From NCBI GenBank assembly GCA_030765365.1, contig JAVCCS010000325.1, positions 1 to 34,010 of the forward strand: a stretch of 34,010 bases of DNA, in the 5' to 3' direction. This stretch comes from Candidatus Theseobacter exili. Lineage in GTDB: Bacteria > Auribacterota > JACPWU01 > Theseobacterales > Theseobacteraceae. Below, one piece after another: positions 9,701 through 34,010 of the stretch. The notes under the pieces are model-generated. The model saw nothing but the letters and a program-made list of their open reading frames with translations. It was not told the DNA's origin and did not search any database. Position 1 is the first letter of the stretch. Each line of letters opens with the position of its first letter. The translations under genes were made by a program, and so were the position numbers.

Positions 9701-9864
9701 TGCCTGTTTTCATCTCCGCTGAAACGATCGTTTATTGAAGCAATATTAGGGGGAATGCTTATTTCACTAACAGGAACATTGCGATTATGCTTAGTTCCCG
9801 CATGAGCTGAATAGCTGAGAAAAACAACAGCAACAGTTATAAAAATCAGTTTGCGAAATGGCAC
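6601..9864 (-). CDS. Giant multidomain protein, N-terminal part: signal peptide, ChaN/TIKI-like domain, P-loop domain 1
   Basis: The ORF has 1087 codons. It starts at GTG 9864, supported by AGGTGA six bases upstream (tcacct at 9871-9876 on the plus strand). Residues 1-23 are a Sec signal peptide ending in AHA. Residues 54 to about 495 carry HVILIRDLHCNLEAQ (D61, H63), VFVEGA and, near the end, CGGFHTDG (H461). This spacing recalls the ChaN/EreA/TraB-TIKI clan (GExH..N...Q, then E, then a terminal G-H), so a metal- or heme-binding or hydrolase-like fold is possible but not shown. A helical region follows to about residue 840. Then comes a P-loop domain with Walker A GVPGASKTT (K856), followed by IYIVEGFG and an Arg-rich RVRQRGR lid, like zeta-toxin or AAA_33 kinases. 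The last 45 residues begin module A and end early at TGA 6601, which looks like a frameshift rather than a true C-terminus. Confidence 0.88.
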   Translation of the reverse strand: MPFRKLIFITVAVVFLSYSAHAGTKHNRNVPVSEISIPPNIASINDRFSGDENRHVILIRDLHCNLEAQLNIARTLEIILKNRDEMPAVFVEGAYGKVKTGLYSAFPDKLVRKKITKKFVKEGVVTGPEYFSIVNGEINSFELWGIEDADLYVDNFKAYRETFQNCEALNELTDKLDSLFVRLTESVADTQLKKFIKVKYSFENDEISISKYMQFLKENNFYGIRTSRYPSFEAFINLIDPMESVNFDLVQQEMEKLLPVLAEKLPNEKVAKLLQMSLEYRMGKAGQSSYFSLLDEMIRSVGLTEKYMNFCEYMKVVKEESKIDKNSLFQEINGIQADIRNKLAKSEEEKQLCSFSDDFQVIVRSASLELSRDDYSGFSSKRLFEIVRFCKSLFDFSKSKISLPDKDGILRLATEAKSEMKSIQRFYKLAIKRDSALYRNAILRMNEQEAKTAVVICGGFHTDGLKENFRKKGIGYTVLTPMTSQVDMTAYKSLMMDERIDFNALSFVSQFNVLMERLSPAMKEENNEALINAYISVFLSSHGIPAENSKKVLDRLLDAWEGNLRSAGTFTDKNEELIAGMRSHSVTYYQAEITDIFTEESVRNLLGSGPATAQLTLRFLEEINHPLSETAAEWYAEMQEEEALRQIVTEEDLRSRLGDIYNYMKVYGVPDEVCALAMGPDELTDNFSKIDKQNGLRMLKAVRRVAYNGGEAAELAVQMQNKLMGLISSGDVVKNLHDDLIGDSTVESKAAIEAAVFLSPYQKGLLVEFLEMFISMEKAYTDTDVRNVFAAFNPELYRAEQVLSDLMDRLEMDRSRPPIGSVALSDGSIALPKLIDRMIREPQKLYVIVGVPGASKTTFTNVIMVELFKEINKRQLPLKFRVIRPDEIQEAKDAAEAFKTQYYPNTIYIVEGFGPPEAVAETYDDLVEGEEEVKKKEIVPIGIFLPYEVALERVRQRGRTEKGNRVSDRVIIEEYSELYNKMYFHYAACEYLIDGATVVRIPYQPRRTMKGLSPEELRGFRTQIKRKQTIREKGNSSAAKVNRELASELETDCADVLTDVEGNKYEIILYDTDLMVLVTPAVFSSLA
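6850..7345 (-). repeat. P-loop kinase-like domain, copy 1 (left giant)
   Basis: The copy contains KLYVIVGVPGASKTTF, a basic/acidic stretch with RVIRPDEIQ, NTIYIVEGFGPPEAVAETY, PIGIFLPYEVALERVRQRGR and, at its end, GLSPEELRG. Copy 2 at 90-530 has the same landmarks in the same order. The motif set resembles zeta-toxin/AAA_33 nucleoside or sugar-nucleotide kinases; the substrate is unknown. Confidence 0.7.
8380..9705 (-). other. ChaN/TIKI-like domain of the left giant protein
   Basis: Landmarks are LIRDLHCNLEAQ near the start, VFVEGAYGK, SAFPDKLVRKKITKKFVKEG, FELWGIEDADLYVDNFKAYR, GGFHTDG and LMMDER at the end. All recur in the same order in the right giant protein (20717-22085). The clan assignment rests on motif resemblance only; the paralogy between the two copies is clear by eye. 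Confidence 0.7.
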
Positions 9865-9880
9865 AAATATTCACCTATTG

Positions 9881-10092: not shown

Positions 10093-12618
10093 ATGGGAAC
10101 TTCAAAAAAAGCAAATAAAGAAAACGGACGTCCGGATCTTTGGAAAGATTATAGAAAAGGCCTTGATGTAGAATCTTTAAAGCTGAGTTTTTCAAACCAG
10201 CTAAAATACTCACTCGCAAAAGACAAGTATTCAGCAACAGATCACGATCGTTTTTACGCTCTTGCTTTGGCTGTAAGAGACCGCCTGATCGAGCGCTGGA
10301 TTACCACTCAACAAACCTATCATAACGTTGGAGCAAAGCGGATTTACTACCTTTCCCTGGAATTCCTTCTTGGCCGTGCAATGGTTAATAATGTAATCAA
10401 CATGGAAATTGAAGATGTATGCAAACAATCCATGAATGAATTAGGGCTTGACTGGAACATGCTAGGCGAAATGGAAGAAGATGCAGGACTTGGTAATGGA
10501 GGCCTTGGACGGCTTGCGGCCTGTTTTATTGATTCTATGGCTACGATGAAACTGCCCGGAATGGGCTACAGTTTAAGGTATGAATACGGAATATTTAACC
10601 AAGCTATCCGTAATTGCGAACAGGTAGAACTTCCTGATAACTGGCTTAGACTCGGCAATCCCTGGGAAATTTCGCGGCCTGAATTTATGTTCAAAGTCCA
10701 TTTCTATGGCCGTGTTGAAACTTACAATGATAATGGTGAACCACACTACCGCTGGAGCAACACCAGGCCTGTTATCGGTATCCCTTACGATATTCCTATT
10801 GTTGGATATGGAAGTAATAACGTTAACAACCTGCGTCTTTGGTCTTCTAAGGCAACTGAGGACTTTGATTTCGAGGACTTTAATCAGGGAGATTATCAAA
10901 AAGCCGTAGAACACAAGATACTTGCAGAAAACCTTACAAAAGTGCTTTACCCCAATGACAATGTGATGCAGGGCAAAGAACTCCGGTTCAAACAGGAGTA
11001 TTTTTTTGTATCATGTACAATACAGGATATTATACGCCGCTATTTGAATGATCATAAAGATTTCATGGCATTTCCTGACAGGGTCGCAATTCAGCTTAAT
11101 GACACACATCCGGCTCTTGCAATTCCAGAACTTATGCGTATTTTGATTGATATTTACAGAGTCACCTGGAATACCGCCTGGGAGATTACAGTTGCAACTT
11201 TCGCATACACTAATCATACTTTACTGCCTGAGGCACTTGAGGAATGGCCTGTAGAGTTTTTTAAAAAAATACTTCCACGTCACCTTCAGATCATTTACGA
11301 AATAAACCGCCGCTTTTTAAGAAAGGTCGCAAATCGCTACCCAAACAATCTTTCAAGGCTTGGACGTATGAGTATTATAAAGGAAGGAGCTCAAAAAAAT
11401 GTGCGTATGGCATATCTTTCTATTGTTGGATCTCACTCTGTAAACGGGGTTGCGGCTCTTCACACCAAGCTGCTAAAAGAAAAGGTCGTGCCGGATTTTT
11501 CAGAGTTTTTTCCTAAGCGCTTTAACAATAAAACTAACGGTATTACACAAAGAAGATGGCTGTTAAAATCAAACCCACGTCTTGCTTCTTTAATCACTGA
11601 ACGCATTGGTAAAGGATGGATCACCAAGTTAAGTGAATTAAAAAAATTGGAAGAACATATTGACGATAAGGGTTTCCTTGAAAGATTTGATTCAATAAAA
11701 AGGGCTAACAAGAAAGACCTGGCAAATTATATAAAAACAATAAAAGGCATACAGGTTAATCCAGACTCAATTTTTGATGTACATATAAAGAGGATCCATG
11801 AGTATAAGCGGCAACTTTTGAATATTCTTCACATTATTTTGCTTTACGACAAGCTGAAGAACAATCCGTCTATGAACATCTATCCCAGAACATTTATTTT
11901 CGGAGGCAAAGCAGCTCCAGGTTATTTTCAGGCAAAACTAATTATTAAACTTATTAATGAAGTTGCCGAAGTGGTGAATAATGATACCGATATTAATGAT
12001 TCAATTAAAATCGTATTTCTTCCTAATTATCGTGTTTCTCTTGCAGAAAAGATCTTCCCTGCTGCAGATGTTAGCGAACAAATTTCAACGGCAGGAACAG
12101 AAGCTTCCGGAACAGGAAATATGAAATTTGCCTTAAATGGCGCTGTAACAGTGGGAACACTTGATGGAGCAAATATTGAAATCCTTGAAGAAGTAGGAAA
12201 AGAAAATATTTTTATATTCGGACTTACGACTGAAAAAGTCTCTCAAATGAAAGCAAGAGGCAATTATGATCCTGTCTCTATTCGCAACAAAAACAAGGAT
12301 ATTGACAAACTGTTTGCACTTATTGAAAGCAATTTTTTTGCTCCCGACGAACCAGGCATTTTTCAACCTATTCTAGACAGTCTTTTCAGATGGGGCGATC
12401 AATACTTCCATCTTGCCGATCTTCCAATGTACATTAAATGTCAAAAGAACGTCGAAGAAATATATAAAAACAAAAATAAATGGTTACGGATGACTGCTTT
12501 AAACGTATGCCGTTCAGGAAAATTTAGCTCGGACAGAACAATAGCAGAGTACAATAAAGATATATGGCATGTAAAACCTGTTGATATTGTTCTTAACAAA
12601 GAACCCAACAAAATATAG
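10093..12618 (+). CDS. glgP: Glycogen/starch phosphorylase
   Basis: This protein of 841 residues has the usual length of GT35 family glycogen phosphorylases. It is expected to release glucose 1-phosphate from alpha-1,4-glucan with inorganic phosphate in the cytoplasm. Visible family landmarks are YYLSLEFLLGR near residue 90, DAGLGNGGLGRLAACF, QLNDTHPALAIPELMRIL, NGITQRRWL, RIHEYKRQLLN, and the pyridoxal-phosphate site EASGTGNMKFALNGA with Lys678. The start is ATG 10093, with a strong purine-rich ribosome site (ggaaagggg) about ten bases upstream. It opens an operon: purM begins eight bases after its stop. The palindrome in its predicted leader suggests specific regulation. Confidence 0.97.
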   Translation: MGTSKKANKENGRPDLWKDYRKGLDVESLKLSFSNQLKYSLAKDKYSATDHDRFYALALAVRDRLIERWITTQQTYHNVGAKRIYYLSLEFLLGRAMVNNVINMEIEDVCKQSMNELGLDWNMLGEMEEDAGLGNGGLGRLAACFIDSMATMKLPGMGYSLRYEYGIFNQAIRNCEQVELPDNWLRLGNPWEISRPEFMFKVHFYGRVETYNDNGEPHYRWSNTRPVIGIPYDIPIVGYGSNNVNNLRLWSSKATEDFDFEDFNQGDYQKAVEHKILAENLTKVLYPNDNVMQGKELRFKQEYFFVSCTIQDIIRRYLNDHKDFMAFPDRVAIQLNDTHPALAIPELMRILIDIYRVTWNTAWEITVATFAYTNHTLLPEALEEWPVEFFKKILPRHLQIIYEINRRFLRKVANRYPNNLSRLGRMSIIKEGAQKNVRMAYLSIVGSHSVNGVAALHTKLLKEKVVPDFSEFFPKRFNNKTNGITQRRWLLKSNPRLASLITERIGKGWITKLSELKKLEEHIDDKGFLERFDSIKRANKKDLANYIKTIKGIQVNPDSIFDVHIKRIHEYKRQLLNILHIILLYDKLKNNPSMNIYPRTFIFGGKAAPGYFQAKLIIKLINEVAEVVNNDTDINDSIKIVFLPNYRVSLAEKIFPAADVSEQISTAGTEASGTGNMKFALNGAVTVGTLDGANIEILEEVGKENIFIFGLTTEKVSQMKARGNYDPVSIRNKNKDIDKLFALIESNFFAPDEPGIFQPILDSLFRWGDQYFHLADLPMYIKCQKNVEEIYKNKNKWLRMTALNVCRSGKFSSDRTIAEYNKDIWHVKPVDIVLNKEPNKI

Positions 12619-19819: not shown

Positions 19820-20344
19820 TCACTTACCAATTTCTTTACAGTTATTTCCTGTCCAGATAAAGCGGCATATATATTTTCCCACCAGTTGAGAATTCTTTTC
19901 ATTTTCTATCCTGCCTATTCCGGTAATGCCTGAGACCATACCGCCCTGGTTTTCAATTAATTGTATAGCCGCTTTCGCCTGTATCCCGGTAACCATCCAT
20001 TCTTCAACAAGCAGAACTCTGCATCCTTCAGCAATAATACCTTTTGGAAGTGTTAATTCTCCTTCAGGATTAAATCTGTCAGAGAAAATCTGTCTATCAA
20101 CATTAATATGCCAGCTGCGTGCTTTCCGGATACAAAGAAATCCCTTCTTAAGATGAGCTGCAAGTGCTGCGCCAACAACATATCCCATTGATTCAGTTCC
20201 TGCGATCAAATCAAATTCAAGGTCAAACACCTTTGTTTCAAGATCTTTTATCAGAGCTGTAAATGCATTCTTATCAGCAAAAAGCGGTAAAATATTATTC
20301 CTCTGTCCGGTTAAAGTATCAATTAGCTGTAAATATTCACACAT
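19820..20344 (-). CDS. Phosphoribosyltransferase-family protein (adenine/orotate type)
   Basis: The protein has 174 residues and starts at ATG 20344 with AAGGAT six bases upstream. The fold marker is the PRPP loop RVLLVEEWMVTGIQAKAA at residues 109-126, in which the usual two Asp are Glu114 and Glu115. GTESMGYVVGAALA at 49-62 is the PPi-binding segment of adenine and orotate phosphoribosyltransferases, and CIRKARSWH follows. It may salvage a purine or pyrimidine base in the cytoplasm. The base is not predictable, and an Glu-Glu-Trp loop suggests a side branch of the family. It is divergent from the right giant gene and shares a short control region with it. Confidence 0.82.
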   Translation of the reverse strand: MCEYLQLIDTLTGQRNNILPLFADKNAFTALIKDLETKVFDLEFDLIAGTESMGYVVGAALAAHLKKGFLCIRKARSWHINVDRQIFSDRFNPEGELTLPKGIIAEGCRVLLVEEWMVTGIQAKAAIQLIENQGGMVSGITGIGRIENEKNSQLVGKYICRFIWTGNNCKEIGK

Positions 20345-20434
20345 TCTGTAATCCTTATGTTATTAAAAAGTGCTTTTAATACTGCTCCCTGCCAAATTGA
20401 CAAATCCTCTATAAGATGGTATACTTTACGAGTC
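20345..20434. promoter_or_regulatory. Divergent promoter region between phosphoribosyltransferase and the right giant gene
   Basis: On the plus strand TTGACA (20397-20402), 17 bases, then TATACT (20420-20425) is close to a perfect sigma70 promoter. Transcription would start near 20432. On the minus strand TTGTCA (20403-20398), 16 bases, then TATTAA (20381-20376) could serve the phosphoribosyltransferase. The -35 boxes overlap, as they do upstream of the left giant gene. Confidence 0.55.
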
Positions 20435-23400
20435 ATGAAAATGCTTATATATGTATATATACTATTACTGCGAATTATCAGGTTCCGGATATATCATAAA
20501 CAAACACATTTATCCGTGAAGTTTGTACACATTGCCTTTTGTGCTCTTATAAGTTCCTCCATGATATTTCAATTTCCATTTTCTGGCAAGATTAGACAGG
20601 CATCTTCACAAACTGTTTTTTCTGTCCCGGAATTAGAATCTCCATCAACTACTTTTAGAAAAGTAAACGACCTCTCATTACAGGGGATGAAAAAAGGCAA
20701 ATCTTTTTCCGGAAAGAATGATCTTTTTCTCATTTTGATAAGAGATCTGCATTGCCAAAAAGAAGCCCAGCTGAGAATTGCAAAAGCAATACGCCAGCTG
20801 CGCCAAAAAGCTGGGATTTCTTTTGTTTTTCTTGAAGGTGCTGAAGGAAAACTCAGAACCCTTCTATTTGAATCTTTTCCTGACAAAAAGATCAGGCGAC
20901 ATATTGGAAAAAAATTTCTTGAAGAAGGATATCTGACTGGTGCTGAATTTGCTGCTATCGAAATGGGGCTTGATGGAAACTTAAAGCTTTTCGGAGCTGA
21001 AACAACCGATCTTTATCTTCAAAATCTGAAAGCTTTCAGAAAGACCCGCAACGCTTTTTCCAATATGCAGGAAATGATTGATGATATGGACAACTGGATC
21101 ACACAGGCCAAAGAAATTTTGTTCTCCAAAGAACTGAAAACCCTGGACAATATTCGCTCAATGCTGGATGGCGAAGGTATGGATCTTGAAAGAGCACTTT
21201 CTGATCTTGCATCATTGCTGGGTTGGAAAAATTCTGACAGCACATCTTCTCCTCAGGAATCTGTTCTGATTGATGCTCAGGAAATGTACAAGCTTGGAAC
21301 AGAACTTGATCAACAGGAAGTTGAGAAGGAACTCTCAAATCTTATTTTCCTTCTTGAAAAAAATCTTGTAGCTGAAGATCTTAAAGAAATGGCCAAGAAA
21401 GCAATCCAATTTCGCCTCGGTCAAATACGTGCGTCTGAATATCTTGCAGCCCTTAAAGATCTATACTGGGAGAATGATATCGGCTCATTTCCTTTTGAAA
21501 AAGAATATCCTAATCTGGAGAAATGGGTTGCTTTGACAAATAAACAGGAAAAGCTTGATATCAACGCTGTTTGGCAGCAGCTTGAAAATGTAGTAGAAAA
21601 AACCAGAAAGCAGCTTGCTGTAGAAGAAAATGTTACTTCACTACTTGTTATTGATAACCGCTGGAGATTGATAAAAAAGCTTATTCAGCTACAATTAACA
21701 AGAAAAGATTTGAAGAAAATTAAGCTCGATGGTGCTGTTGGAAAAGTGGACGAAATTTTCAAGAAAATGAAGGCTCTAAAAAGAAAATCGGAAAACCTTC
21801 CAGATGCTCCTCAGGGAGCTTCATCTTTTACATCTCTTGCAGAAACGGCAACCAGCTTTTATGAGCTGGCACAAAAGCGTGATGCCGTCCTTGTAGAAAA
21901 AACCCTGTCACAACTGAAGCTTGAAAAAACTAATGGAGGAATTCTAGTTACCGGCGGTTTTCACACAGAAGGGATACAAACAAGATTAGAGGGTGAAGGC
22001 ATTTCATATGTAACGTGGACACCTACCGTCACCAGTGAAGTTGACGGAACCAGATATGAAGAAATAATGATGGACGAATCATATGATCTGGATGAAATAG
22101 AGTTTTCAGACAAACGTATCGCCTGGCGTAATGAAAGCTTAGAAGTTAAAAAAATGCTGTCTGTTCCTGCAATGACCGGCAGAATTATGAACAGGTTGAG
22201 CCCTAAAGGAAAAGAGATATTCGGAGAACTGGTTCAGTCAATGGTAGAAGCAAAGATAAGTGAAGGAACTCCGGTTAACACTGTTATTAATGACTGGATG
22301 GAGCAAAAAGGACCATCCGATGAGGTTGTACGTGAAACAGAATGGGATGATATCCTGGTGCTTCTAAAAGCAATTTCAGGTTTTTCCGGAATCTTTATTA
22401 ATTTTATGGCTCTTGAAAACCAACCTATCTCGAAAATGCAGAAAAGTCTTGCAATAAAAACTGTTGAAGAAGCTTTTGGCAAAGATTCAGGACTCGCACA
22501 GCTCACACGTCGTTTTTGCGAAGAAACAGCCACGGATGAAGGGAAAAACCTACAATCTCCCGCAAGTGATACAACAGGACAGGGAGCCGTGACTGAAACA
22601 GTTACTGATCCTACTGCTTTTTCAGCAGAAGAGCTTCAAATGATATTAGATGTTGCTGAACTTCATCTCGGCTCAATCGAAAAACTGCAGGACCCTGAAA
22701 AAGCGGAATCGGGAATAAGGCCACGGATTGAAATACGAAAAGACCTTCTGAAAAATGTTGTTCAGGTTGCTCTATGTTCACAATCCAAAGCAATAAACAA
22801 TAAAATAGCTGCATCACTTTCTGAATTATTCGGCAAAAACCCTGACAACCGTCTTTCTTTTAATCAAGCAGGATTGGGCACTATTGAAATCGGAATAAAA
22901 GGCATTGATTTTCGTAGTGCTCGTCAATTTGTTAAAAATAATTTCGATCAGATTTTACAGCAAATGCATTACAAGCATAAGGAGGGACAGCTAATTGACG
23001 CAAAAACAACAAAAACCATTGTTTTTGCCGAAGCAGACGGAGCGATTTATAACAGACCTGTTCCAGGTAGGGCTCCCATTGAGAATAATCTTGAAAACTC
23101 TGCAGCAAGGGACTCTTTAGTTCAATATCTTGAAGCCGGAGGTATCGTTGCTGTTACTGCAGGAAACGATCTTTTCCGCACTGCAAAAAGAATTTTTAAA
23201 GGAATTCCGAAAGAAAAAAGGCATCTTCTGACGAATATCCTGATAATTGCTGATGGAGGAGGAGTAATTTCGACAATAAGCCCAACCGGAAGCCTGAATC
23301 AAGTAGCTTTATACCGTAGGACAGCACTATTAACTGAGAATCAGAATGTCTCCTCTGAACATTTTGATGATATTTATATAGGTCAGGAATATCTTCCTCC

Positions 23401-26400
23401 TGAGAATTCCTTATCCGTGTCACTATTGCCACCTTCTCCACATGATGTAGACAGGCATCTCGGGAATCATGATGCTGGTGCCCGTACATTCTTTGAAGCC
23501 GCAATTAATCAGGCACGAAAAACTCCATTAATGCCGCTTTTCCTGAATCAGCAAGTAAATAATCTTGTTGCAACAGCACGTAATCTTCAAGCCAAAAGAC
23601 CTAAAGAAACAGATAATGCTGAAAAAGGACCAATATTAATCTCCCCGCAAACTGCTCAAATCATTCTTGAAACTGCAGAAAAAATCATACGTCTACGCAC
23701 AGATATTCCAAACGAAGTTGATCTTCAGAGTAAGGAACGTGCTGAAAAAGGGAAACGTCCACGCATTGAAGTAAGAACATTTCAGGACGACATTATTCAA
23801 ATTACAATTGGTGCTGAAAACAAGGTGCTCAGAGATATTATGCAAAAACTGCTTTCAACACTGCCTGAAAGTGAAGTCGGACGGCTTTTTATAGTTTCAG
23901 CCGGTTCAGCTTCTGTAGAAATAAGTATTGATGGCGTTGACAAGGGTCTGCCAATTGGATTTCTCGAAAATCATTTTGATGAAATACTGGATGAAATTGG
24001 CTACGTTCACAGAGAAGAAGAACCTATTGACGCAAGAAAAACCAGAACTGTCATTATAGCCGACGGTGACGGAACAACATATGATAAACCCATTCTGGGA
24101 AAAAGCCCGACGGAATTTACACTCGAAAACTCAGAGGCACGCAATAACTTAATTGAATATCTTGAATCCGGAGGAATTTACGCTTTCAATTCAGGAAATG
24201 ATGCCCAGAGAACAGCCCAGAGAATCCTTGCTGGAATTCCTCCAAACAAAAGAACTTTACTATTAAGCCGGATTATTGTTATAGCTGCCGGTGGCGGAAT
24301 AATGGCAAGGATTGATCCAGAGACCGGTGCTCTCCGGGAAATTGCCAATTATAGAAAAAATGCATTGGATGAAAAATCAAAAGGACCGGCACAAAATCTT
24401 GATATCATTTATGTTGGAGATGACTATAAAGCTACAGGAAACGATTCTGCTGCTTTTTTAAAAGTCGGACTAACCTCAGATAGTTCCGGATCCGCAATAC
24501 TTGTTTCAGACAGAACACCTGAATATGCTGTTTTATCTAGTAATCAGATTGGAGGATTTGTTAAAGGCACTTCATCTTTGCTTAAAGCTGTCACAGAACA
24601 TGCCAGAGCAAATCCCGGACAGCCAATATTTACACAAGAAACCATTCCGGCAATCATAGACCATTCCCGAAATATAAAAATGGCATTATTAGAAGCTGAA
24701 AATGCACCGGATCCAGGGACAACTGACGAAGAATCTCCTCTTTTTCAGATTGCTGAAAACACTTTTCAAAAAGCTCGGGCAGCAGCCACAGCTCCACGCT
24801 CTGCTTTCCAGAAGGAAATATTTTATATTCAGGCTATTCTTAGGTCCGGAAACCTGAATGCGATCAACCAAAGCGGTTTAAGCCTAATTGATGATTTTGC
24901 TTCTCTTACTATTGGCGATGGACAAACAATCCTTGAAGACAGACCGGAAATCAGGCAGCTGGCTAAAGCTCAAAAACGACCTCTTCCTGAAATTATTAAA
25001 CTTGCTAAAACTCTTTATCCAGACCGCAAACGCCACTATCTTGCCGCAGTACAATTCGCAATTTTTTCACGAATGAAAATTAGTGAAGGTGCAAATGTAT
25101 CACCTTTAGTTCTTCTGTATCTTGCCGAAAAACTTGCTGACAGAATTGCCGATACGAATGATCCTTTTTCTGAGGATCAGCTTGTAATTGGCGGAAACGT
25201 CATTATTCCAGGTGTTGCAAAAGATAGTTCCATTGATTTCAACCAGGTTACAGTAGGTGGGAAACCCATTTTGAACCTTTTCCCTGAAGAAAAGGATATT
25301 AATTCTGCAATCCTTAAAACAGCAGTTAGAAACAGAATGCTCCACTCCTTACTTGGTCTGATTACTGACAGTGTCAAGTTTACTGAAGGCGATGATATAG
25401 AAGTCATATATTCAGATTTCATCAACGATAACATTGGAATTGCTCTTGAAGGAGTATCCGGAGACTACAAAAACCGCGTTGAAGAATATGCCGCTATTTT
25501 CAGCAGAAGACATTATCTAAAAGACAGGGCCCTTGTTGAGCAGAAACTCTGGGATTGGAGATATGCAAGGTTTGTCGGTCTTGTAGCCCGTCTGGGTACA
25601 AAAGAACAAACTCCAAGAATATGGGAAGAACTTGATGAGTTATGTGGAAGGATATTAAAAAATTCTCCGAAGGAGCTTAAAGGTAAAACTTTGGAGGAAC
25701 GAATATTTGCTGTTCTGCAAAAAAGAATTAGCAGTCGTGTTAAAAAGGCCGGGCTATTAAGTGAAATTATAACCGGGCTTTCTGAAGGAAGTTTTTCTGT
25801 CCAATTTTTTATTAATCGCAAAAAAGACTGGAACGATTACCTTTCAATGACTCACTCAGATATTGTTCAGAATAGATTTTACGAAACACATGGTGCAATA
25901 GTCGGAGGACTCCTGGGCCATAAGGTAACAAATCGAACATTTAAATCAATGGGTTTTGCTTTGACACCCAAAGCACAAACACTGACAAAATTAACTCACG
26001 GGTTTTATAAAGCAGACGACAAATACTATCATATCAGAAGGATTGGAGAAAAAACAGTTGTCTCGGAATGCACACCTGATTTCGTTACAGCAAAAATAAA
26101 CCAGCAAATCGAAAAAGGCTCAGCTTATGGAAAATTAATTGTAGAACTTATAGGTAAGAAGGTTTTTGTGAATGAAGATCTGGCGATTCTCGAGCGCCAG
26201 AAAAACTCAATGGATGTTATTGAAAAAGTTTCAACTCAAATTCAAAAGGTTCTCCAGGACTGGTCTGAACCACAAGACGGGACGGACCCGTACAATCACA
26301 AATTATTTGGACAAGTCTACATGGAAAGCTCTGACGGGAAAATAGTATCGGATAATATCTTCACAGATCCTGAAGATGCAGCTGTTCTTGAATATCTTAT

Positions 26401-29400
26401 TACTTCAAAATCTAAAGCCCTAAGCGTTGATGCCGGGACAAAGCAGGATGCAGAGGAAGGAGAAACACCGGTATGGATATCAGGAAATATGCGTTTAACT
26501 CTTACTGAAACCAAACAGGATGACACTATAAGAGCTTTTGTCTCAAATTTTAATTCACACCCTAAAAATGCCGATAAAATCCTTCATATCACGACACGGA
26601 TGGGGATAAGCAGAAAACCTATCCCTGCATCCGTTGAAACTGATTCCATGGCAGCACTTTCAGTCGATGACGGAAATAATATTGTAGCTGAGGACAGTGT
26701 AAATTTACAGGTCGGCAGCGTTATTGAAGCTTCAATTCAGGGACGTATACAACAGCTCTACAAATCAGTTTCTCCTTACTTTAAACCTGCTATAGTGTTA
26801 AAAGCCGTTTCAGATCGCAGCGCTCTACACGGTATTCTTAGAGAGATGCAACAGACAGGTCAACGAATTTGGGCCAGGCCTTTAGATGATCCGATTGCAA
26901 TTAATAATCATGAAATCCTTTTTTCATCTGAAACTTTAGATATAATAAGAAAAAATAAAGTAGCAATCCTATATCATGAAATTTTTGGTACAGATAGACC
27001 CTCTTTATTGCAGAAACAACTTACTGCCAGGGTTCTGTCCCTTGCTTCAGACTTCTTTAAAGAACAAGCATTTAAAACAGGATTCACAACTCCATCGGAA
27101 ACAAGCCACTATAGTGAAGAAGCTTTCAGGAAGTTTGTAGACCCAAATGATCCTATCTTAATTTCATTTAATGAAAAACAGTTTCGGGGACTGTATGAAT
27201 TTGCTGTTATCCAAAGACTCTTTGACCTTCGCGAATCTCTACTTGACGACTTTACAATTCCAAGAAACCAGTACGGCAATCCTGAAGCAGAAGGGAAAAC
27301 AACTTTATTTAATCACGCACTCAGGGAAAACAGTATAAAGGCTTCCAGGGTTATAGACGCACTGCAAAATGGTCCTGAAACTGACGAGAATAGACGAATA
27401 AGTGAATCAGCGCTACTCGTATTTCTTAACAATATAAATCAAGATCTTACAGATGTTTTTATGAATGATCCAAGAAATCCCCAAATAGAAAGCTATGATG
27501 CCTTTGCTTTCAGGATTGGAGAAGATTACAGTAATTTTGCTAATAGCGGACAACAGTATTTTGTAGGTTTTGCGGATGTAAGAGGTTTTGCTGAAGTAAA
27601 CCACTGGCATTATGAGGCTCTTATGGAAGAGCTTTCTTACCTGCTTAATGAGCAACCTCAAACACCTGCAAGGTCAGAATTTTCTCAAAATATCAAAGGG
27701 GATCAAGACTTTACACAAGCTATACAGCTTTACGATTCGCATATGGAAGAATTCCTTAAAAAAGTTGATAGAATTTATAAAGAAAAATTCCGTTATGATC
27801 TCATGAGCGATCAGCTCAAAAGACAGGTAAAAGAAAAAATTGAAATGTTATTACATGCACGTAAATATCAGTTATTCCAGGAAGCATTATACCTTAACGG
27901 AAAAACAGATCGCGGTCCTCCTTCTTTGAAACAAGCACTCGATACATTCAAAGCGCAATACGATCCGTCAACCGGAACAATTGGTGAATATTTTAAGGCT
28001 TTAGTGGAAAGCGAAGAATTAGCATACAAAAAATACGTAATTTATAATGATTCCCTAAAGGAAATTACGGACCCCAATGCAACAGGATACACACTAATAG
28101 AGCTTTTCGAGGCAAATGCTTTCAGAGAAGGTGGTGACGAAATCTACTTTGCCGGAGCTATCCTGACAGAAGAAGTGATGGAGGCTTTTACCGAGTTTCA
28201 GGTTAATCTTACCGGCAAAGGTCAAACAACAGCCCACTTACGCGTACTTGCTGAAGATCCGGCCGTGGCCGTCCATGGAAGAAACCCTGTTATTGCGGTT
28301 TTTAAAGCACTTGCAGATACAGACGGCAGACTTGTTCAGGAAGCAAAAAAGCATGAAGGCATAGAAGGCCGTTCAATGGTATTAAAACGTTCTCATTATG
28401 TGTTCGACCCGGATGGAGAACAAGCTTCAAAAGAAGAAGTTCTTGTCAGACATATTAACGGATCAATCAGGTATAAAAAAGTCAAAACTCTTCAGTACAG
28501 TAATGGTTATAAAAATATTATCGCAGAACGCTTGCGAGCTATAGGAGTAAATCCGGGAGAAGCAGCGGGGCTTGCAGAAATTGTAGTCTTTGCTGATGCA
28601 ACGGGCCAAAACTGGGTTGCAAGAGAAAAGCTTGTTGATCGTCTTAGCGGCGACTCTGAAACAAGCGCATTTTTAAGACAGATAAAGGCTGGTTTACCTT
28701 CTGAAGACAGAATCTACACAACTCTCAGAGATGTTATTCTTAAAGAGCTTGAACAGTGGGATTTCTTAAGAAGCATACCCCTGAAAACGCTTCAGGATGA
28801 AGAAATAAAAGTCAGCGAATATATTGACAAAGCTTTTTATGTCATTGACAAATTAGCTCCTTTTATAAATAGAAGCATTATTCAGCAAATGGTATTGAAC
28901 CTGCCTGATTTTGTTTTCTCGAAAACCGATAAAGCAGCTTCAAATCATTTAAGGAAAAGATTTTTCGATACACTCATCTTTCACAAGAAAATGAATAGTC
29001 ATGAAGTTCTTAAATATTATAGAGAAATATTAACCGCTAAAGAAACTATTGAGACACCGACCGTATCCATGGAAGGCCTGCCTCTTATTAATCAGAGCCC
29101 AATATCCTGGCGCGGCAATAGCATTGAAGGCAAAAAAATCGAACAGGTTAAAAGCGAAGTTAAAACACAGTCTGCATCTTTAGGCAAAATAGAAGGCAAA
29201 GAAGTCTGGGTTGATACTGCACTTATTTCCAGGTTCGAAGACTTTGGATACACCTCCCAAGACGAGTTTGAAGCGTTCTTAAGAACATTTCTTTCTGAAC
29301 AGTTCACACATGCGCCTCCCATAGAAGATGAAATAGTAATAGCAAGCCTGTCGTCTTCAGAACATTTATTTGAAGACCACAAAGAAAACGGATTTATTGG

Positions 29401-32400
29401 AACAAACGAGCAATTATTTAAGCCCACGATATCCCCCGCTTTACGGTTAAAACTTCTTCAGTTAGGACTGAGGCATGAGCTGGCACATGAAGCTATAGGA
29501 CCATTAAGTGGAGATGCTCTTAATCAATTTGAAAAAGAACAATTATTAGAAGATGTCGATTACGCAAAAAGCCTTGGAATAACTTCACAAGAACTGTTTG
29601 AAACCGGTTTGTTCCCTTGGGGATCATGGCTCCATATTTTATTGATGGACTCGATAAAACCATCAGATATTCCTCCTGCCAACTGGACAGCAGCCAACGT
29701 CAGGCCTGAAGTAAAATCTCCTGTTTATGAAACCATTGATGAATTATTAGCTCACAATCAGGCTAAACTGCTTTTCCCTACTGAAAGATTGCCGCAAATT
29801 GATTCCGGAATAGCACAGACAACCAATGCTTCTGGAATATTTCTGGGTTTCATTGAGGGAATAACAAACCCTGTCATTATTAAACTATTCCCTATTAAAA
29901 GAAAGTCTATACTGTCTGTGGACGATACAGAACTGCAGAAGGCACAGACATTTTCAAACCTGGGTGTCGGGCCTGAATTCTATGGAATAGTTCAAACTCC
30001 TATTGTTGAGGAAGATGGAAAGACCCGTATGGCGACAGGATTTGCAATGCAGCCTGTGGCTATTGACGAAACAGCTACGGAAACAGAAATCACAGCTATA
30101 AAAAGCCCTGATTTTCGCAAGATCCTAACGCGTCTGTCCAGGATAGGCCTGACTCTCGGAACCCCGGTTAAAACAGTTCAAGGCGGAAGAATATCAATAG
30201 ATGCAGGTAATGCAATGCTTATGGAACCGGCTTTATATAACAGATATTTAGATTCATCAAAACCAGCTGCGGGCAAAGGCGTACTCGGCTTTATTGCACG
30301 CGGAGTTTTCGGCATCGCAAATGCACTGCAAATACCAATGACACAAAGAATCAACGGCTTTATTGAAGATATTGTTATTCCCACTATAGAAGAAGGTCTA
30401 CTTTTGGGACTATCATTTGGTAATCCTCTCGTATATACAGGTCTTCGAGCACTTTTTGTTGGCCTTCATGCTGTACAGGACCGCGCGTCTCCTGAAGGTA
30501 AAAAGAGAACTCTTTGGGAAAAGATAGCTTTGCCGTTTTTTATGTCCACGGTATCTTTAATAACCCTTGCTTTCTTTCCACAAATGCTTCCGCTTGCCGC
30601 ATTGGCTGGATTAATCGCACATATAGCTTCAAATACATATGTAACATGGCGTAAATCCAGGTTACAGAAAGGGATTGTTGGACCATCATCATGGGAAACT
30701 GAAGCAAAGGCAATTGAAAATATTCAAGGAGCAATTGAAGAATACCGCCCGGATATTTTTCAAAGATATGAAGCTCTCTCATCTTTGTCACCCGAGCAAA
30801 TTGAAGATCTTAACAATGATATATATGCTATCACCCAGGGACATTTGCAAATTTGGGGATTAAGATCGGCTCTCAGCAGAAAAACATGTCCATATTTTAA
30901 CGGCAGCTATATCAAGGCGCTACAGCTTGCTTTTCCTGGGCTGGATTTGACCCCTCTGGGCTTTCAGCTTGATTTTAAAACCCTGGAAAAAGGCATTGAA
31001 TCTGTCAGGTTTATTCTTGACCGTGAAAGACCTGATATAGCAGAACAATATTCACGTATTTCAGAACTTAACTCCGATGAAATTGATCAATTAAGAAATT
31101 CAGTTTATGAAATAAGCTCTGCTCACCTTGAAGTATGGGGCCTTTCTAATGCAAAAAAGAAAAAAAGTGCTCCTTACTTTAACGGCAGTTATATTACTGT
31201 ATTGCAGATAGCATTTCCTGACCTGAATCTTAATTCTCTTGGTTTTAAACTGGATTGGTCCTCTCGGGAACAAGCTGCAGCCTCTATCAAATATGTTCTT
31301 AAAAGAGAAGCTTCCAGCATAATAGAAAGATATTCAAAGCTATCTTCTCTCTCTCCAGCCCAAAGAATTGATCTTAAAAATGATATATATAATATTAAAC
31401 AATCCCATTTCAGAGTTTGGGGCCTTGGAGGTGTAAAAGCAGTTCCATATTTTAATGGAAGTTATGTTTCAGCCCTTGGGCTAATTTTTAGTGATCCTCT
31501 ACTGGATTTTTCAGAAAAAGAAATGAAAAAGCACAGACTGGTTCAACTTGAAAGAAAATACAGCTGGAAAAATGGATTGCAGGAAGCAATTGGAAACGTT
31601 AGAGATGCAATTGAAGAAAACCGGCCGGATCTTATCAACAGATACAATCAGTTTGCCACACTTAATGCCAAAGAAATCACGGCTTTAAAAGATGACATCT
31701 ACAGGCTAACCGGAGGCCATCTTAACCTTTGGGGAGTGCGCTCTGCATTGTCTACAGAAACTGCACCGTATTGGGAGGGCAGTTATGCTTCTGCTTTAAG
31801 CTCTGTTTTCCCCGCTCTAAAACTGAATCCCCTGGGATTCCAACTTGACTGGACAACTCCTGAAAAAAGCATTGAATCCGTTAGTTATGTTTTTAATAAT
31901 AATATTCCTGAAATTATGGCTGAATATGCCCGCCGGCATTCCTTAACCCCATCTGAATTAGAACGCCTTAGAAATAAAATCTATAAAATAACCTCTGCTG
32001 ATTTTTCAATATGGAAGCTTTCAGGCGCTATTAATGCAAACTCTTGCCCATATTTTAACGGAAGCTACATAAATGCCATACAGGCTATATTTTCTGATCT
32101 AACCCTGGATCCCCTAGGCTTTAACCTGAACTGGTCAACACCAAAACAGGGAGTAGCTTCAGTACAATATATTTTTGAGCGTGAAATTCCTTCCATTATG
32201 GAAAAATATAAAAATCTTGATTCTCTTGAACCGGAAGAAATAGACCTTTTAAAAAATAAAATCTATGCCATAACCTCAAAACATTTCAGGGTTTGGAAGA
32301 TAGCCGCAGCCAGCAATCAAAAAACAGCCCCATATTTTAAAGGGAGCTATATTAATACAGTTATGTCAGTTTTTAATGATCCTCGTCTGGGTCTAGAAAC

Positions 32401-34010
32401 TGAAGGATTTAACAATCTGCAAAAAGCTTCAAAATCCAAAGGTGTACCCGGCAGTAATTTTGATCTGACTAGAGAAGGCGTTGCATCAGGAAGGCAATCC
32501 AAGATCGCTTCAGATCAGTCAATTGCACAATTCTTCAATGATAATGATTCGCAGGGAATACAGCCGTTGATTGAAGGTCTGTCTCTTGAAATAGTCGGAG
32601 AAATTGATCCGACTTCTGCTGAAAATATCAAGAATCAGCTGATAAGTTTTTTAAATAACGAAAAACACAAAGGCCTTCTTGAACAGTTTAAAAACTATTC
32701 TAATGGCACTCGGTTAGCTGTCCTGTCCGGGCTTGTTGCTTTAGCAAAAGAAACAGGTAAAGGCGCAAGCTACGCCCATTACGGAGAGGCCGTCGGTTCT
32801 ACAATTTTTTCAGGGAGCAAATTGCTTTCTAAGCTTTTGGAAACCGGGCACTGGCCCAGCCTGGAAACCTACTTAAAACTCGAGCTTGAACGCAGACGTT
32901 ATCGTGCTGAAAACCCGGAACAGCCTGATTCCCGTGGGTCATATGAGGTTATGCAGGCTGCAGGTATTACAAAAAACGAAAGGGACCAGCTTAAGATGGT
33001 TGTTGCAGAAGCCGAAGCAGAAGAACTTATGGATCGTTACAAGCATGAGGATCTAACAAAAACAATTCTACAGATGGCAACGGATCTGGAAAGAGAAGTT
33101 CAAGACCGTAAATCCGATATCTGTTCTGTTGAACTGGGACAAATGACTGGACTGGTTCTTGATGCTCTTGGACGTTTGCTTGGTGAAAGAATGCGTAAGG
33201 TTGATGCGACAGATGCTGAAAAAGTTCAAAGTGCCGTAAAAAGAATTGGAAGTGAACAGGACAGAATTATGGCAAAGGAGGTTTCTGATGCCCTGATTTC
33301 CCGGCTTTTAGCTGAATCCGACAATAACGCTGAAGTAATAGGCCTTAACCTGCTTATGAACGAAGTTGTAATTTATGATAAGTCAGGGAACACACGTAAT
33401 ATTTCCCTTTCTTCTGAAGAAGCAAGGGCGCTAAATCTTATGGTAGGCAAATTAGCAGGCAATCATGAATGGGTATTTATTGATTTAAAAAGAAATATAA
33501 CCCATGAACAATTCAAAGAATTCTTTGCAGAAAATATCGCAGCGCTTGTAGGCGAGAAGGATATCCCGAGTAATTCATGGCTTGATTCTATCAGTTTAAA
33601 TGATCAGGATGTTCTTCTTCTTTCAAAAGGGAAGTCCGGACTTAATAATCTCATACAAAGCCTTGACTATTTTCAATCAAATCCTGCGGGTCTTGAAAAA
33701 GACATGCCTTTTGCTCTTACAAACGCTAAACATCTTTTGAAACTGCAAGAACAGGAATGTATTGAGTTTCTGCAATCTAATGCAAACAGGTTAGCAATAT
33801 CAGAAGAAGATCTTGACGCGTTTGAGCTTATTCTTCCTAATAATCTATTGGCAAAATTGCGTTCAAACTGGAAAAGATGGAGAAATGTTCCCAAAGATCA
33901 AAAGGTTGCAGTTATGCTTCTTGATACTGTTGCAACAAAAATTCCTGAACAACTAATGGAAGGGATGGAACATGTTTGTGTTATTCCTGTTAAAATAAAT
34001 CCTGTTCAAA
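20435..34010 (+). CDS. Giant multidomain exported protein, at least 4525 residues, open at right edge
   Basis: One frame runs without a stop from upstream of 20435 to the window end. From ATG 20435 the order is: a hydrophobic N-terminus, ChaN/TIKI-like domain (about 95-550), duplicated HAD-like units (about 730-1420), a long unassigned region (about 1420-3000), HELAH metal site (3014-3018), kinase-like fold (about 3127-3271), CAAX-protease-like membrane segment (about 3310-3405), six tandem repeats (3420 to about 3991), then unassigned helical sequence. The start is uncertain. ATG 20435 sits about three bases after the predicted transcription start and would be nearly leaderless. GTG 20516 would give a standard signal peptide (KFVHIAFCALISSSMIF) and a length to the RDLH motif like that of the left giant. 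Neither has a clear ribosome site. The protein is probably exported or membrane-bound; its function is unknown. Confidence 0.9.
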   Translation, partial: MKMLIYVYILLLRIIRFRIYHKQTHLSVKFVHIAFCALISSSMIFQFPFSGKIRQASSQTVFSVPELESPSTTFRKVNDLSLQGMKKGKSFSGKNDLFLILIRDLHCQKEAQLRIAKAIRQLRQKAGISFVFLEGAEGKLRTLLFESFPDKKIRRHIGKKFLEEGYLTGAEFAAIEMGLDGNLKLFGAETTDLYLQNLKAFRKTRNAFSNMQEMIDDMDNWITQAKEILFSKELKTLDNIRSMLDGEGMDLERALSDLASLLGWKNSDSTSSPQESVLIDAQEMYKLGTELDQQEVEKELSNLIFLLEKNLVAEDLKEMAKKAIQFRLGQIRASEYLAALKDLYWENDIGSFPFEKEYPNLEKWVALTNKQEKLDINAVWQQLENVVEKTRKQLAVEENVTSLLVIDNRWRLIKKLIQLQLTRKDLKKIKLDGAVGKVDEIFKKMKALKRKSENLPDAPQGASSFTSLAETATSFYELAQKRDAVLVEKTLSQLKLEKTNGGILVTGGFHTEGIQTRLEGEGISYVTWTPTVTSEVDGTRYEEIMMDESYDLDEIEFSDKRIAWRNESLEVKKMLSVPAMTGRIMNRLSPKGKEIFGELVQSMVEAKISEGTPVNTVINDWMEQKGPSDEVVRETEWDDILVLLKAISGFSGIFINFMALENQPISKMQKSLAIKTVEEAFGKDSGLAQLTRRFCEETATDEGKNLQSPASDTTGQGAVTETVTDPTAFSAEELQMILDVAELHLGSIEKLQDPEKAESGIRPRIEIRKDLLKNVVQVALCSQSKAINNKIAASLSELFGKNPDNRLSFNQAGLGTIEIGIKGIDFRSARQFVKNNFDQILQQMHYKHKEGQLIDAKTTKTIVFAEADGAIYNRPVPGRAPIENNLENSAARDSLVQYLEAGGIVAVTAGNDLFRTAKRIFKGIPKEKRHLLTNILIIADGGGVISTISPTGSLNQVALYRRTALLTENQNVSSEHFDDIYIGQEYLPPENSLSVSLLPPSPHDVDRHLGNHDAGARTFFEAAINQARKTPLMPLFLNQQVNNLVATARNLQAKRPKETDNAEKGPILISPQTAQIILETAEKIIRLRTDIPNEVDLQSKERAEKGKRPRIEVRTFQDDIIQITIGAENKVLRDIMQKLLSTLPESEVGRLFIVSAGSASVEISIDGVDKGLPIGFLENHFDEILDEIGYVHREEEPIDARKTRTVIIADGDGTTYDKPILGKSPTEFTLENSEARNNLIEYLESGGIYAFNSGNDAQRTAQRILAGIPPNKRTLLLSRIIVIAAGGGIMARIDPETGALREIANYRKNALDEKSKGPAQNLDIIYVGDDYKATGNDSAAFLKVGLTSDSSGSAILVSDRTPEYAVLSSNQIGGFVKGTSSLLKAVTEHARANPGQPIFTQETIPAIIDHSRNIKMALLEAENAPDPGTTDEESPLFQIAENTFQKARAAATAPRSAFQKEIFYIQAILRSGNLNAINQSGLSLIDDFASLTIGDGQTILEDRPEIRQLAKAQKRPLPEIIKLAKTLYPDRKRHYLAAVQFAIFSRMKISEGANVSPLVLLYLAEKLADRIADTNDPFSEDQLVIGGNVIIPGVAKDSSIDFNQVTVGGKPILNLFPEEKDINSAILKTAVRNRMLHSLLGLITDSVKFTEGDDIEVIYSDFINDNIGIALEGVSGDYKNRVEEYAAIFSRRHYLKDRALVEQKLWDWRYARFVGLVARLGTKEQTPRIWEELDELCGRILKNSPKELKGKTLEERIFAVLQKRISSRVKKAGLLSEIITGLSEGSFSVQFFINRKKDWNDYLSMTHSDIVQNRFYETHGAIVGGLLGHKVTNRTFKSMGFALTPKAQTLTKLTHGFYKADDKYYHIRRIGEKTVVSECTPDFVTAKINQQIEKGSAYGKLIVELIGKKVFVNEDLAILERQKNSMDVIEKVSTQIQKVLQDWSEPQDGTDPYNHKLFGQVYMESSDGKIVSDNIFTDPEDAAVLEYLITSKSKALSVDAGTKQDAEEGETPVWISGNMRLTLTETKQDDTIRAFVSNFNSHPKNADKILHITTRMGISRKPIPASVETDSMAALSVDDGNNIVAEDSVNLQVGSVIEASIQGRIQQLYKSVSPYFKPAIVLKAVSDRSALHGILREMQQTGQRIWARPLDDPIAINNHEILFSSETLDIIRKNKVAILYHEIFGTDRPSLLQKQLTARVLSLASDFFKEQAFKTGFTTPSETSHYSEEAFRKFVDPNDPILISFNEKQFRGLYEFAVIQRLFDLRESLLDDFTIPRNQYGNPEAEGKTTLFNHALRENSIKASRVIDALQNGPETDENRRISESALLVFLNNINQDLTDVFMNDPRNPQIESYDAFAFRIGEDYSNFANSGQQYFVGFADVRGFAEVNHWHYEALMEELSYLLNEQPQTPARSEFSQNIKGDQDFTQAIQLYDSHMEEFLKKVDRIYKEKFRYDLMSDQLKRQVKEKIEMLLHARKYQLFQEALYLNGKTDRGPPSLKQALDTFKAQYDPSTGTIGEYFKALVESEELAYKKYVIYNDSLKEITDPNATGYTLIELFEANAFREGGDEIYFAGAILTEEVMEAFTEFQVNLTGKGQTTAHLRVLAEDPAVAVHGRNPVIAVFKALADTDGRLVQEAKKHEGIEGRSMVLKRSHYVFDPDGEQASKEEVLVRHINGSIRYKKVKTLQYSNGYKNIIAERLRAIGVNPGEAAGLAEIVVFADATGQNWVAREKLVDRLSGDSETSAFLRQIKAGLPSEDRIYTTLRDVILKELEQWDFLRSIPLKTLQDEEIKVSEYIDKAFYVIDKLAPFINRSIIQQMVLNLPDFVFSKTDKAASNHLRKRFFDTLIFHKKMNSHEVLKYYREILTAKETIETPTVSMEGLPLINQSPISWRGNSIEGKKIEQVKSEVKTQSASLGKIEGKEVWVDTALISRFEDFGYTSQDEFEAFLRTFLSEQFTHAPPIEDEIVIASLSSSEHLFEDHKENGFIGTNEQLFKPTISPALRLKLLQLGLRHELAHEAIGPLSGDALNQFEKEQLLEDVDYAKSLGITSQELFETGLFPWGSWLHILLMDSIKPSDIPPANWTAANVRPEVKSPVYETIDELLAHNQAKLLFPTERLPQIDSGIAQTTNASGIFLGFIEGITNPVIIKLFPIKRKSILSVDDTELQKAQTFSNLGVGPEFYGIVQTPIVEEDGKTRMATGFAMQPVAIDETATETEITAIKSPDFRKILTRLSRIGLTLGTPVKTVQGGRISIDAGNAMLMEPALYNRYLDSSKPAAGKGVLGFIARGVFGIANALQIPMTQRINGFIEDIVIPTIEEGLLLGLSFGNPLVYTGLRALFVGLHAVQDRASPEGKKRTLWEKIALPFFMSTVSLITLAFFPQMLPLAALAGLIAHIASNTYVTWRKSRLQKGIVGPSSWETEAKAIENIQGAIEEYRPDIFQRYEALSSLSPEQIEDLNNDIYAITQGHLQIWGLRSALSRKTCPYFNGSYIKALQLAFPGLDLTPLGFQLDFKTLEKGIESVRFILDRERPDIAEQYSRISELNSDEIDQLRNSVYEISSAHLEVWGLSNAKKKKSAPYFNGSYITVLQIAFPDLNLNSLGFKLDWSSREQAAASIKYVLKREASSIIERYSKLSSLSPAQRIDLKNDIYNIKQSHFRVWGLGGVKAVPYFNGSYVSALGLIFSDPLLDFSEKEMKKHRLVQLERKYSWKNGLQEAIGNVRDAIEENRPDLINRYNQFATLNAKEITALKDDIYRLTGGHLNLWGVRSALSTETAPYWEGSYASALSSVFPALKLNPLGFQLDWTTPEKSIESVSYVFNNNIPEIMAEYARRHSLTPSELERLRNKIYKITSADFSIWKLSGAINANSCPYFNGSYINAIQAIFSDLTLDPLGFNLNWSTPKQGVASVQYIFEREIPSIMEKYKNLDSLEPEEIDLLKNKIYAITSKHFRVWKIAAASNQKTAPYFKGSYINTVMSVFNDPRLGLETEGFNNLQKASKSKGVPGSNFDLTREGVASGRQSKIASDQSIAQFFNDNDSQGIQPLIEGLSLEIVGEIDPTSAENIKNQLISFLNNEKHKGLLEQFKNYSNGTRLAVLSGLVALAKETGKGASYAHYGEAVGSTIFSGSKLLSKLLETGHWPSLETYLKLELERRRYRAENPEQPDSRGSYEVMQAAGITKNERDQLKMVVAEAEAEELMDRYKHEDLTKTILQMATDLEREVQDRKSDICSVELGQMTGLVLDALGRLLGERMRKVDATDAEKVQSAVKRIGSEQDRIMAKEVSDALISRLLAESDNNAEVIGLNLLMNEVVIYDKSGNTRNISLSSEEARALNLMVGKLAGNHEWVFIDLKRNITHEQFKEFFAENIAALVGEKDIPSNSWLDSISLNDQDVLLLSKGKSGLNNLIQSLDYFQSNPAGLEKDMPFALTNAKHLLKLQEQECIEFLQSNANRLAISEEDLDAFELILPNNLLAKLRSNWKRWRNVPKDQKVAVMLLDTVATKIPEQLMEGMEHVCVIPVKINPVQ
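20717..22085 (+). other. ChaN/TIKI-like domain of the right giant protein
   Basis: LILIRDLHCQKEAQLRIA (D104, H106 from ATG 20435), VFLEGAEGK, ESFPDKKIRRHIGKKFLEEG, KLFGAETTDLYLQNLKAFR, VTGGFHTEG (H510) and IMMDES occur in the same order as in the left giant protein. The charged and His residues of the first and last motifs are kept in both copies, which suggests a preserved metal or ligand site. The clan assignment is by motif resemblance only. Confidence 0.7.
22621..23600 (+). repeat. HAD-like unit, copy 1, with changed nucleophile position
   Basis: RPRIEIRKD, then a strand-rich part, then TIVFAEADGAIYNRPVPG, LENSAARDSLVQYLEAGGI, AVTAGNDLFRTAKRIFKGIP and NILIIADGGG. Alignment with copy 2 places Glu866 (23030-23032) where copy 2 has the first Asp of DGDGT, and Ala where it has Thr. 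A HAD phosphatase needs that Asp, so copy 1 is probably non-catalytic. Confidence 0.65.
23638..24700 (+). repeat. HAD-like unit, copy 2, with intact DxDGT motif
   Basis: RPRIEVRTF, then TVIIADGDGTTYDKPILG (Asp1210 and Asp1212), LENSEARNNLIEYLESGGI, AFNSGNDAQRTAQRILAGIP, RIIVIAAGGG and DIIYVGDDYKATGND. Motif I and the late GDD-x(4)-ND segment fit the HAD phosphatase superfamily, close to the sugar-phosphatase type. The substrate is unknown. Confidence 0.65.
24701..29440 (+). other. Long unassigned part of the right giant protein
   Basis: About 1580 residues with no motif I can name. Composition and spacing look like soluble alternating helix and strand segments, with no membrane helix and no low-complexity repeat. 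Local features include VAILYHEIFG near 26970 and a Gly/Asp-rich stretch ISFNEKQFRGLYEF near 27170. It remains in frame throughout. Confidence 0.6.
29450..29520 (+). other. HExxH metal-binding motif in the right giant protein
   Basis: LGLRHELAHEAIG places His3014, Glu3015 and His3018 in the HExxH pattern of zinc metallopeptidases, inside a predicted helix. A third ligand cannot be assigned; acidic residues follow within 25 positions. A single HExxH can occur by chance in a protein this long, so protease activity is only a possibility. Confidence 0.45.
29815..30245 (+). other. Degenerate protein-kinase-like fold in the right giant protein
   Basis: PVIIKLFPIKRK (beta3-like Lys), ELQKAQTFSNLGVGPEFYG (helix C and strand 4), TGFAMQPVA (hinge) and GGRISIDAGNAML (metal-loop-like strand) follow the order of RIO/choline-kinase-like folds. 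The HxD catalytic loop is not recognisable, so this may be a pseudokinase. Confidence 0.45.
30260..30670 (+). other. CAAX-protease (CPBP/ABI)-like membrane segment in the right giant protein
   Basis: Several hydrophobic helices carry the three CPBP signatures in order. EE at 3319-3320 (30389-30394) lies in IPTIEEGLLLG; FVGLH fits FxxxH (Phe3341, His3345); HIASN fits HxxxN (His3396, Asn3400). The Arg of the usual EExxxR is Leu here. CPBP proteins are intramembrane glutamate/zinc-type proteases or their inactive relatives. Confidence 0.5.
30692..32412 (+). repeat. Six tandem ~94-residue repeats in the right giant protein
   Basis: Repeat starts are at 30692, 30974, 31256, 31565, 31850 and 32132, with spacings of 94, 94, 103, 95 and 94 residues. 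Each unit runs: W or F, a helix with (I/V)E.(I/V), (E)YRPDI-like, RY..LSSLS.EEI..L.N.IY.IT, H(F/L).(V/I)W(G/K)L, then PYFNGSYI or a variant, then (I/F)F.DL.L.PLGF.LDW. The fourth unit has PYWEGSY and the third has a nine-residue insertion. Units share protein pattern but their DNA has diverged, so this is an old, selected array rather than a recent expansion. Confidence 0.88.
32413..34010 (+). other. Unassigned C-terminal region of the right giant protein within the window
   Basis: About 530 residues, mostly helical and charged, continue in frame to the window end. Examples are KLELERRRYRAENPE near 32880 and SVELGQMTGLVLDALGRLLGE near 33125. I recognise no named domain. The last full codon is at 34007-34009, with no stop. 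Confidence 0.6.

Follow-up and report, generated by a model that had tools for sequence, protein, structure and literature searches.

A giant gene of Candidatus Theseobacter exili as candidate member of a family of modular proteins with a ChaN/TIKI-like head and a conserved C-terminus

The contig JAVCCS010000325.1 of Candidatus Theseobacter exili, which we refer to as the window (the whole stretch of DNA analysed, 34,010 nucleotides), carries on its plus strand a giant coding frame that runs from a likely start at ATG 20435 to the contig end (20435–34010). We propose, with a probability of about 0.5, that this gene belongs to a large family of paralogues in Auribacterota and Omnitrophota. Their products are giant, modular and probably exported, and would combine a TIKI-type hydrolase head acting at the cell envelope with a C-terminal sorting or processing signal. 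Four traits define the family at the sequence level: a signal-peptide-like start, a head of ~480 residues, a long tail of varied modules and, in most complete members, a C-terminus of ~35 residues. The first-pass annotation of the window had regarded the gene as a single open reading frame (ORF) with an unusual mix of domains. Its statement that no characterised protein has such an order stands, and the whole window protein gave nothing significant when compared with Pfam, NCBIfam and PDB sequences (including phmmer). The gene is not singular, however, but one of many with a common head and C-terminus.

The single huge frame seen in the first pass is real and its only interruption is the contig end. 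It is stop-free over 13.6 kb, from just after a stop at ~20332 to 34009, and comprises 4551 codons if counted from the first ATG at 20357, from which all residues of the window protein are numbered here, or 4525 codons if counted from ATG 20435. The latter is the likelier start because a near-consensus, sigma-70-like promoter (TTGACA-17-TATACT with an extended -10 TG; 20397–20425, plus strand), which with 11 of 12 consensus matches is the best site of the region, ends just upstream of it. At a GC content of 39–40%, where ~6% of random codons are stops, the chance of such an open frame is arithmetically ~1e-128; moreover, the GC content by codon position (~0.5/0.36/0.30) is uniform over the whole giant frame. 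As the window is the entire contig G000:C136 of a 2.76-Mb genome in 334 contigs, the gene is truncated where the contig ends, and a search for an overlapping contig that would extend it found none. Longer homology to the complete paralogues C202 and C23b suggests that the missing stop lies ~80–130 codons beyond the contig end, where the alignment of the window is ambiguous as to the stop position, and that the full gene has a predicted length of ~14 kb.

The head domain (amino acids (aa) 98–600; 20648–22156, plus strand) contains a helical insertion of ~270 residues (aa ~220–488) and is preceded by a hydrophobic, signal-peptide-like segment (aa 52–71; 20510–20569, plus strand), recognised by its hydropathy and by similar N-termini in homologues. 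The earlier reading of this front as ChaN/TIKI-like is borne out: D130, H132, E160 and H536, i.e. a D-x-H motif, a Glu and a His, are invariant in all 70 aligned homologues, and the corresponding E-x-H, E and H are invariant in 19 aligned ChaN-family proteins as well. The spacing of 28 residues from His to Glu equals that in RRSP and Bcr135, whose active-site layout consists of an acid-x-H motif and a Glu 28 residues after the His (PMC6254334); the acid-x-H motif also matches. When the head was aligned with the 19 ChaN proteins by hhalign, probabilities of 73–76% were obtained, rising to 92% for the C-terminal part alone, and the insertion-free core reached 85% with a score of 42, whereas none of 20 column shuffles scored above 20. 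PF04187 was matched weakly by six of 34 members of the head family. On the conserved residues and the profile similarity we place the head, as judged from sequence, in the ChaN/TIKI/erythromycin-esterase (Ere) superfamily.

The AlphaFold2 model of the head (predicted local distance difference test (pLDDT) 88.2, predicted template modelling score (pTM) 0.81) likewise exhibits the long helical insertion, and this insertion drives the Foldseek comparison with PDB and viral models, in which coiled-coil and other helical proteins dominate. Matches of the head profile among PDB sequences were mostly to centrin, calmodulin and troponin; these fall on the insertion, too, and were taken as spurious.

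Within its own genome the first ~650 residues of the window protein match ~19 places, some of these being fragments at contig ends; many of them lie in frames of 2000–5100 codons, several of which are complete. Of 44 genomes from the window's phylum, 10 contain the family according to a head profile of 70 rows, nine of them in families f1, f2, f5, f6 and f11 and one, with a single weak match, in f10; the remaining families among these 44 genomes gave no match. There are up to 50 head matches per genome (some heads being counted twice), and the longest frame with a head has 24,620 codons. In a broad scan of 84,980 species, each represented by one genome, 181 loci were confirmed and 80 kept. The kept loci are mostly from records titled Omnitrophota, the others from Auribacterota, the isolates R3-B46 and AUK210, a 'Chlamydiae bacterium' and a Bugula symbiont. 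Eight named genomes have between 1 and 42 head matches each, and six frames reside in CP070780.1, a record titled chromosome. Omnitrophota also carry the head family, although they are not the host phylum: Omnitrophota as host of the window was considered and rejected, the genome belonging to the phylum of Candidatus Auribacter fodinae (Auribacterota).

Heads are fused to tails of at least 200 aa at 62 of the 80 loci, and the N-termini are signal-peptide-like in most of the headed ORFs listed. At 12 loci (L101, L107, L113, L116, L117, L119, L121, L122, L124, L125, L127 and L132) the head stands alone; these proteins have ~500–650 aa, mostly with signal-peptide-like starts, and do not possess the C-terminus of the giants (0/12). 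Viral contigs yielded one head match, on the viral-collection contig L183 (IMGVR_UViG_3300045144_000334), which may be host DNA.

The second common element is the C-terminus. Complete giants, headed or headless, often end in a similar stretch of ~35 residues, approximately hxLPxxxPIDYxxxhxxYxxAxxAhxxAA, with [ASM][AVLM] as last residues. A hidden Markov model (HMM) of this stretch, built from the odd-numbered loci of the Omnitrophota scan, recovers end-anchored copies in the held-out even-numbered loci. There, 24 of 35 frames of at least 1000 codons have the ending, as opposed to 3 of 87 frames of 300–600 codons (Fisher 5e-14), and among the long frames it is present in 18 of the 19 that have a head and in 6 of the 16 that lack one. 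In the window's genome C138, C202, C257, C274, C23b and the headless C224 all end in AA or MA. A comparison of 46 C-termini with Pfam and NCBIfam gave no credible model match. Given a common head and C-terminus and different middles, giant genes that seem unrelated are therefore treatable as one family. At a further locus, G006:C19 (L171), a frame of 28,618 codons with an HExxH module ends in FDEAA; no head is listed for it.

Nine of 13 heads from the window's own genome fall into one supported clade (97/91), and the window head is sister to that of C157; three rows of the tree that bear the label OMNI, L120, L160 and L148, in fact belong to the window's phylum (isolates R3-B46 and AUK210), which leaves the own-genome clade unaffected. 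The nearest relatives of the individual parts of the window protein are three separate paralogues, i.e. C157 for the head, C224 for the middle and C105 for the repeats. This is consistent with module exchange, heads having multiplied within the lineage while the tails differ.

The tail of the window protein, all on the plus strand, starts with a tandem internal duplication (aa ~740–1440). Its first unit (22574–23611) is degenerate and HAD-like by motif only; the second (23612–24679) has DGDGT and GDDYKATGND motifs by eye and matches Pfam Hydrolase_3 at an E value of 0.14, below significance. Of the HAD-like units annotated here, the duplication and the motifs remain; Pfam gave no significant match. 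The following middle part (25052–29038) contains no known domain and is shared with the headless giant C224 (34–38% identity) and, weakly, with G001:C44. The HExxH site noted in the first pass is present as HELAHE (aa 3040–3045) and lies in a module (29057–29656) that is kept in giants of several genomes, HE--HE being invariant in 13 aligned sequences. The module matched no known family and may be regarded as a putative Zn-metalloprotease-like domain. In the 212,060 residues of the family frames HExxH was counted 52 times, compared with a mean of 3.9 in shuffles; in viral contigs no copy of the module was found.

The adjoining region (29657–30328), formerly described as a kinase-like fold, gave neither a homologue nor a Pfam match, and Pfam does not support that description. 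It is followed by a hydrophobic module (30329–30691) with FxxxHA and AHxxSN motifs, which recurs in giants of G001 and G002. Its proposed identity as CAAX protease (CPBP) is not supported by profile comparison: an hhalign comparison of a three-sequence query with PF02517 scored 13.7, inside the range of shuffles (7.6–18.2), so that the likeness is confined to the motifs. The predicted repeat array exists (30692–32479) and consists of six copies of ~94 aa with the motif PY[FW]xGSY; it is also found in the paralogue C105 and is modelled by AlphaFold2 as all-helical, at low confidence (pLDDT 64.9). The C-terminal region (32480–34010), whose stop lies beyond the contig, is homologous to the end of C202 and weakly to that of C23b.

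The tails of other giants contain, according to Pfam, phosphoglucomutase/phosphomannomutase (PGM) domains in 11 of 32 cases and, once or twice each, transaldolase, phosphofructokinase, UDPGP, pyruvate phosphate dikinase, ABC1, SLT, M48 and other domains. Giants of the window's genome carry PGK and FBPase (C105), EPSP synthase (C202), phosphorylase and HATPase (C257), AAA_5 (C82), PPDK_N, HATPase and a kinase (C274), and GNAT (C138). The PGK and EPSP synthase copies in the giants are diverged and, relative to separate housekeeping genes for both enzymes in the same genome, have lost residues of known role in the active site. In C23 (L022) a single in-frame TAG at 7713–7715 splits a headed giant into parts of 1066 and 2676 codons, the second of which retains the giant C-terminus.

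On its minus strand the window harbours another giant gene of this family. Its 5' part (6601–9864) has a signal-peptide-like start and a head (8341–9726) that is 30% identical to that of the plus-strand giant. The continuation (3–6629), in another frame and open at the contig end, has glycosyltransferase group 1, ABC1-like and P-loop kinase-like regions, and the gene appears to be broken by a frameshift near 6550–6630. The two parts (window 3–9870) share a repeated sub-domain. An ordinary glycogen phosphorylase gene (10093–12618, plus strand) is located beside the giants, and the giant C257 carries a diverged phosphorylase domain. Between both giants lies a gene for a glycosyltransferase of the capsular polysaccharide synthesis type (PF05704; 16901–18574, minus strand).

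How might such proteins work? If the window gene belongs to an exported family as proposed, Sec would export the giant protein, the head would act as a hydrolase at the envelope, and the C-terminus would be recognised by a machinery for secretion, anchoring or tail-specific processing. Binding modules and some enzymatic ones would come from the variable tail, several of them dead metabolic enzymes that would be reused as binding folds, and these modules would serve to deal with other cells or with the surface of the organism itself. We tentatively extend this proposal in that the ~35-residue C-terminus may, possibly, address proteins to an undescribed system for export, anchoring or processing that is dedicated to the giants of Omnitrophota and Auribacterota, and in which the TIKI-type head would be the shared enzyme and the tail the exchangeable cargo.

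Several observations weigh against an exported family of this kind. The own C-terminus of the window gene lies beyond the contig end, and the ending is missing in one held-out headed giant (L126) and in three broken-looking frames of the window's genome. Furthermore, the C-terminal criterion was derived from the data prior to its test, although the test loci were not seeds of the HMM. Foldseek gave no significant match for the whole head model, and the most probable match listed, the TIKI-fold protein HopBA1, has a probability of 0.80 but an E value of 0.69. The signal-peptide-like calls rest on hydropathy, not on a signal-peptide predictor. Finally, some PGM copies keep the catalytic motifs TASHNP/DGDADR, so not all tail enzymes are dead.

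The giants might instead be weapons for predation or host interaction, i.e. they would be displayed on the surface and attack neighbouring cells with their heads and metalloprotease-like modules. Giant ORFs are known from Omnitrophota, where they have been linked to predation or symbiosis (Seymour et al. 2023, PMC10066038). Gigantic multi-enzyme proteins of the same phylum with Skillet-clade Lipocone domains, which combine polysaccharide enzymes, peptidases, signalling domains and transmembrane segments, have been interpreted as anti-prey (PMC12419801). The strong enrichment of HExxH, the patchy distribution and an SLT transglycosylase in one tail would fit this role as well. However, adhesin and carbohydrate-binding domains are absent among the Pfam families listed for the tails, and degenerate enzymes of central metabolism are not obvious as weapons; we consider this explanation rather unlikely.

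Given the abundance of protease-like modules and the appearance of the modules as separable domains, the giants could also be self-processing polyproteins. Their tails would be cut into separate proteins by a tail-specific protease or by the protease-like modules that they contain, with the conserved C-terminus as recognition end. The nonpolar C-terminal end in fact resembles substrates of tail-specific proteases. As several modules lack enzyme residues, though, we regard a polyprotein as distinctly improbable. By far the least probable explanation is decaying debris, i.e. fused pseudogenes that are open by chance. There are broken-looking copies, such as the minus-strand giant with its frameshift and C23 with its TAG, and dead enzyme copies, but debris is hardly expected to keep head residues invariant in 70 sequences, a conserved C-terminus, head-bearing frames open over up to 24,620 codons and a strong promoter-like site.

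Giant bacterial proteins have been hard to study, as most of them have few recognised domains and poor apparent conservation. By the shared head and C-terminus the giants described here can be recognised in both phyla and counted as a single family, and two questions become testable, namely the substrate or binding partner of the head and the factor by which the C-terminus is read.

The T9SS C-terminal domain, PEP-CTERM and LPXTG are C-terminal sorting signals. The ending of the giants resembles them in being a short conserved C-terminus on proteins that are exported or, in the case of the giants, probably so, and differs in having no visible hydrophobic anchor and no credible match to a curated model. 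With ChaN/TIKI/Ere proteins (PF04187, RRSP, Bcr135, HopBA1) the head shares the acid-x-H motif, the Glu 28 residues on and a C-terminal G-x-x-H; in contrast to them, it has an Asp in place of the first Glu of the 2His/2Glu-type site, the helical insertion and fused giant tails. Large proteins are also known in relatives from the PVC (Planctomycetes–Verrucomicrobia–Chlamydiae) group (PMC12057145). Searches of open-licence full text and the passages considered of PMC10066038 and PMC12419801 gave no indication that a common head or C-terminus has been described. The window gene (13.6 kb seen, ~14 kb predicted) is below the 20-kb cut-off used for the giant ORFs of Omnitrophota and its host is from another phylum, yet it is similar to them in its great length, its few recognised domains and its related lineage (PMC10066038), and it is, like the Omnitrophota proteins with Lipocone domains, both giant and multi-domain (PMC12419801).
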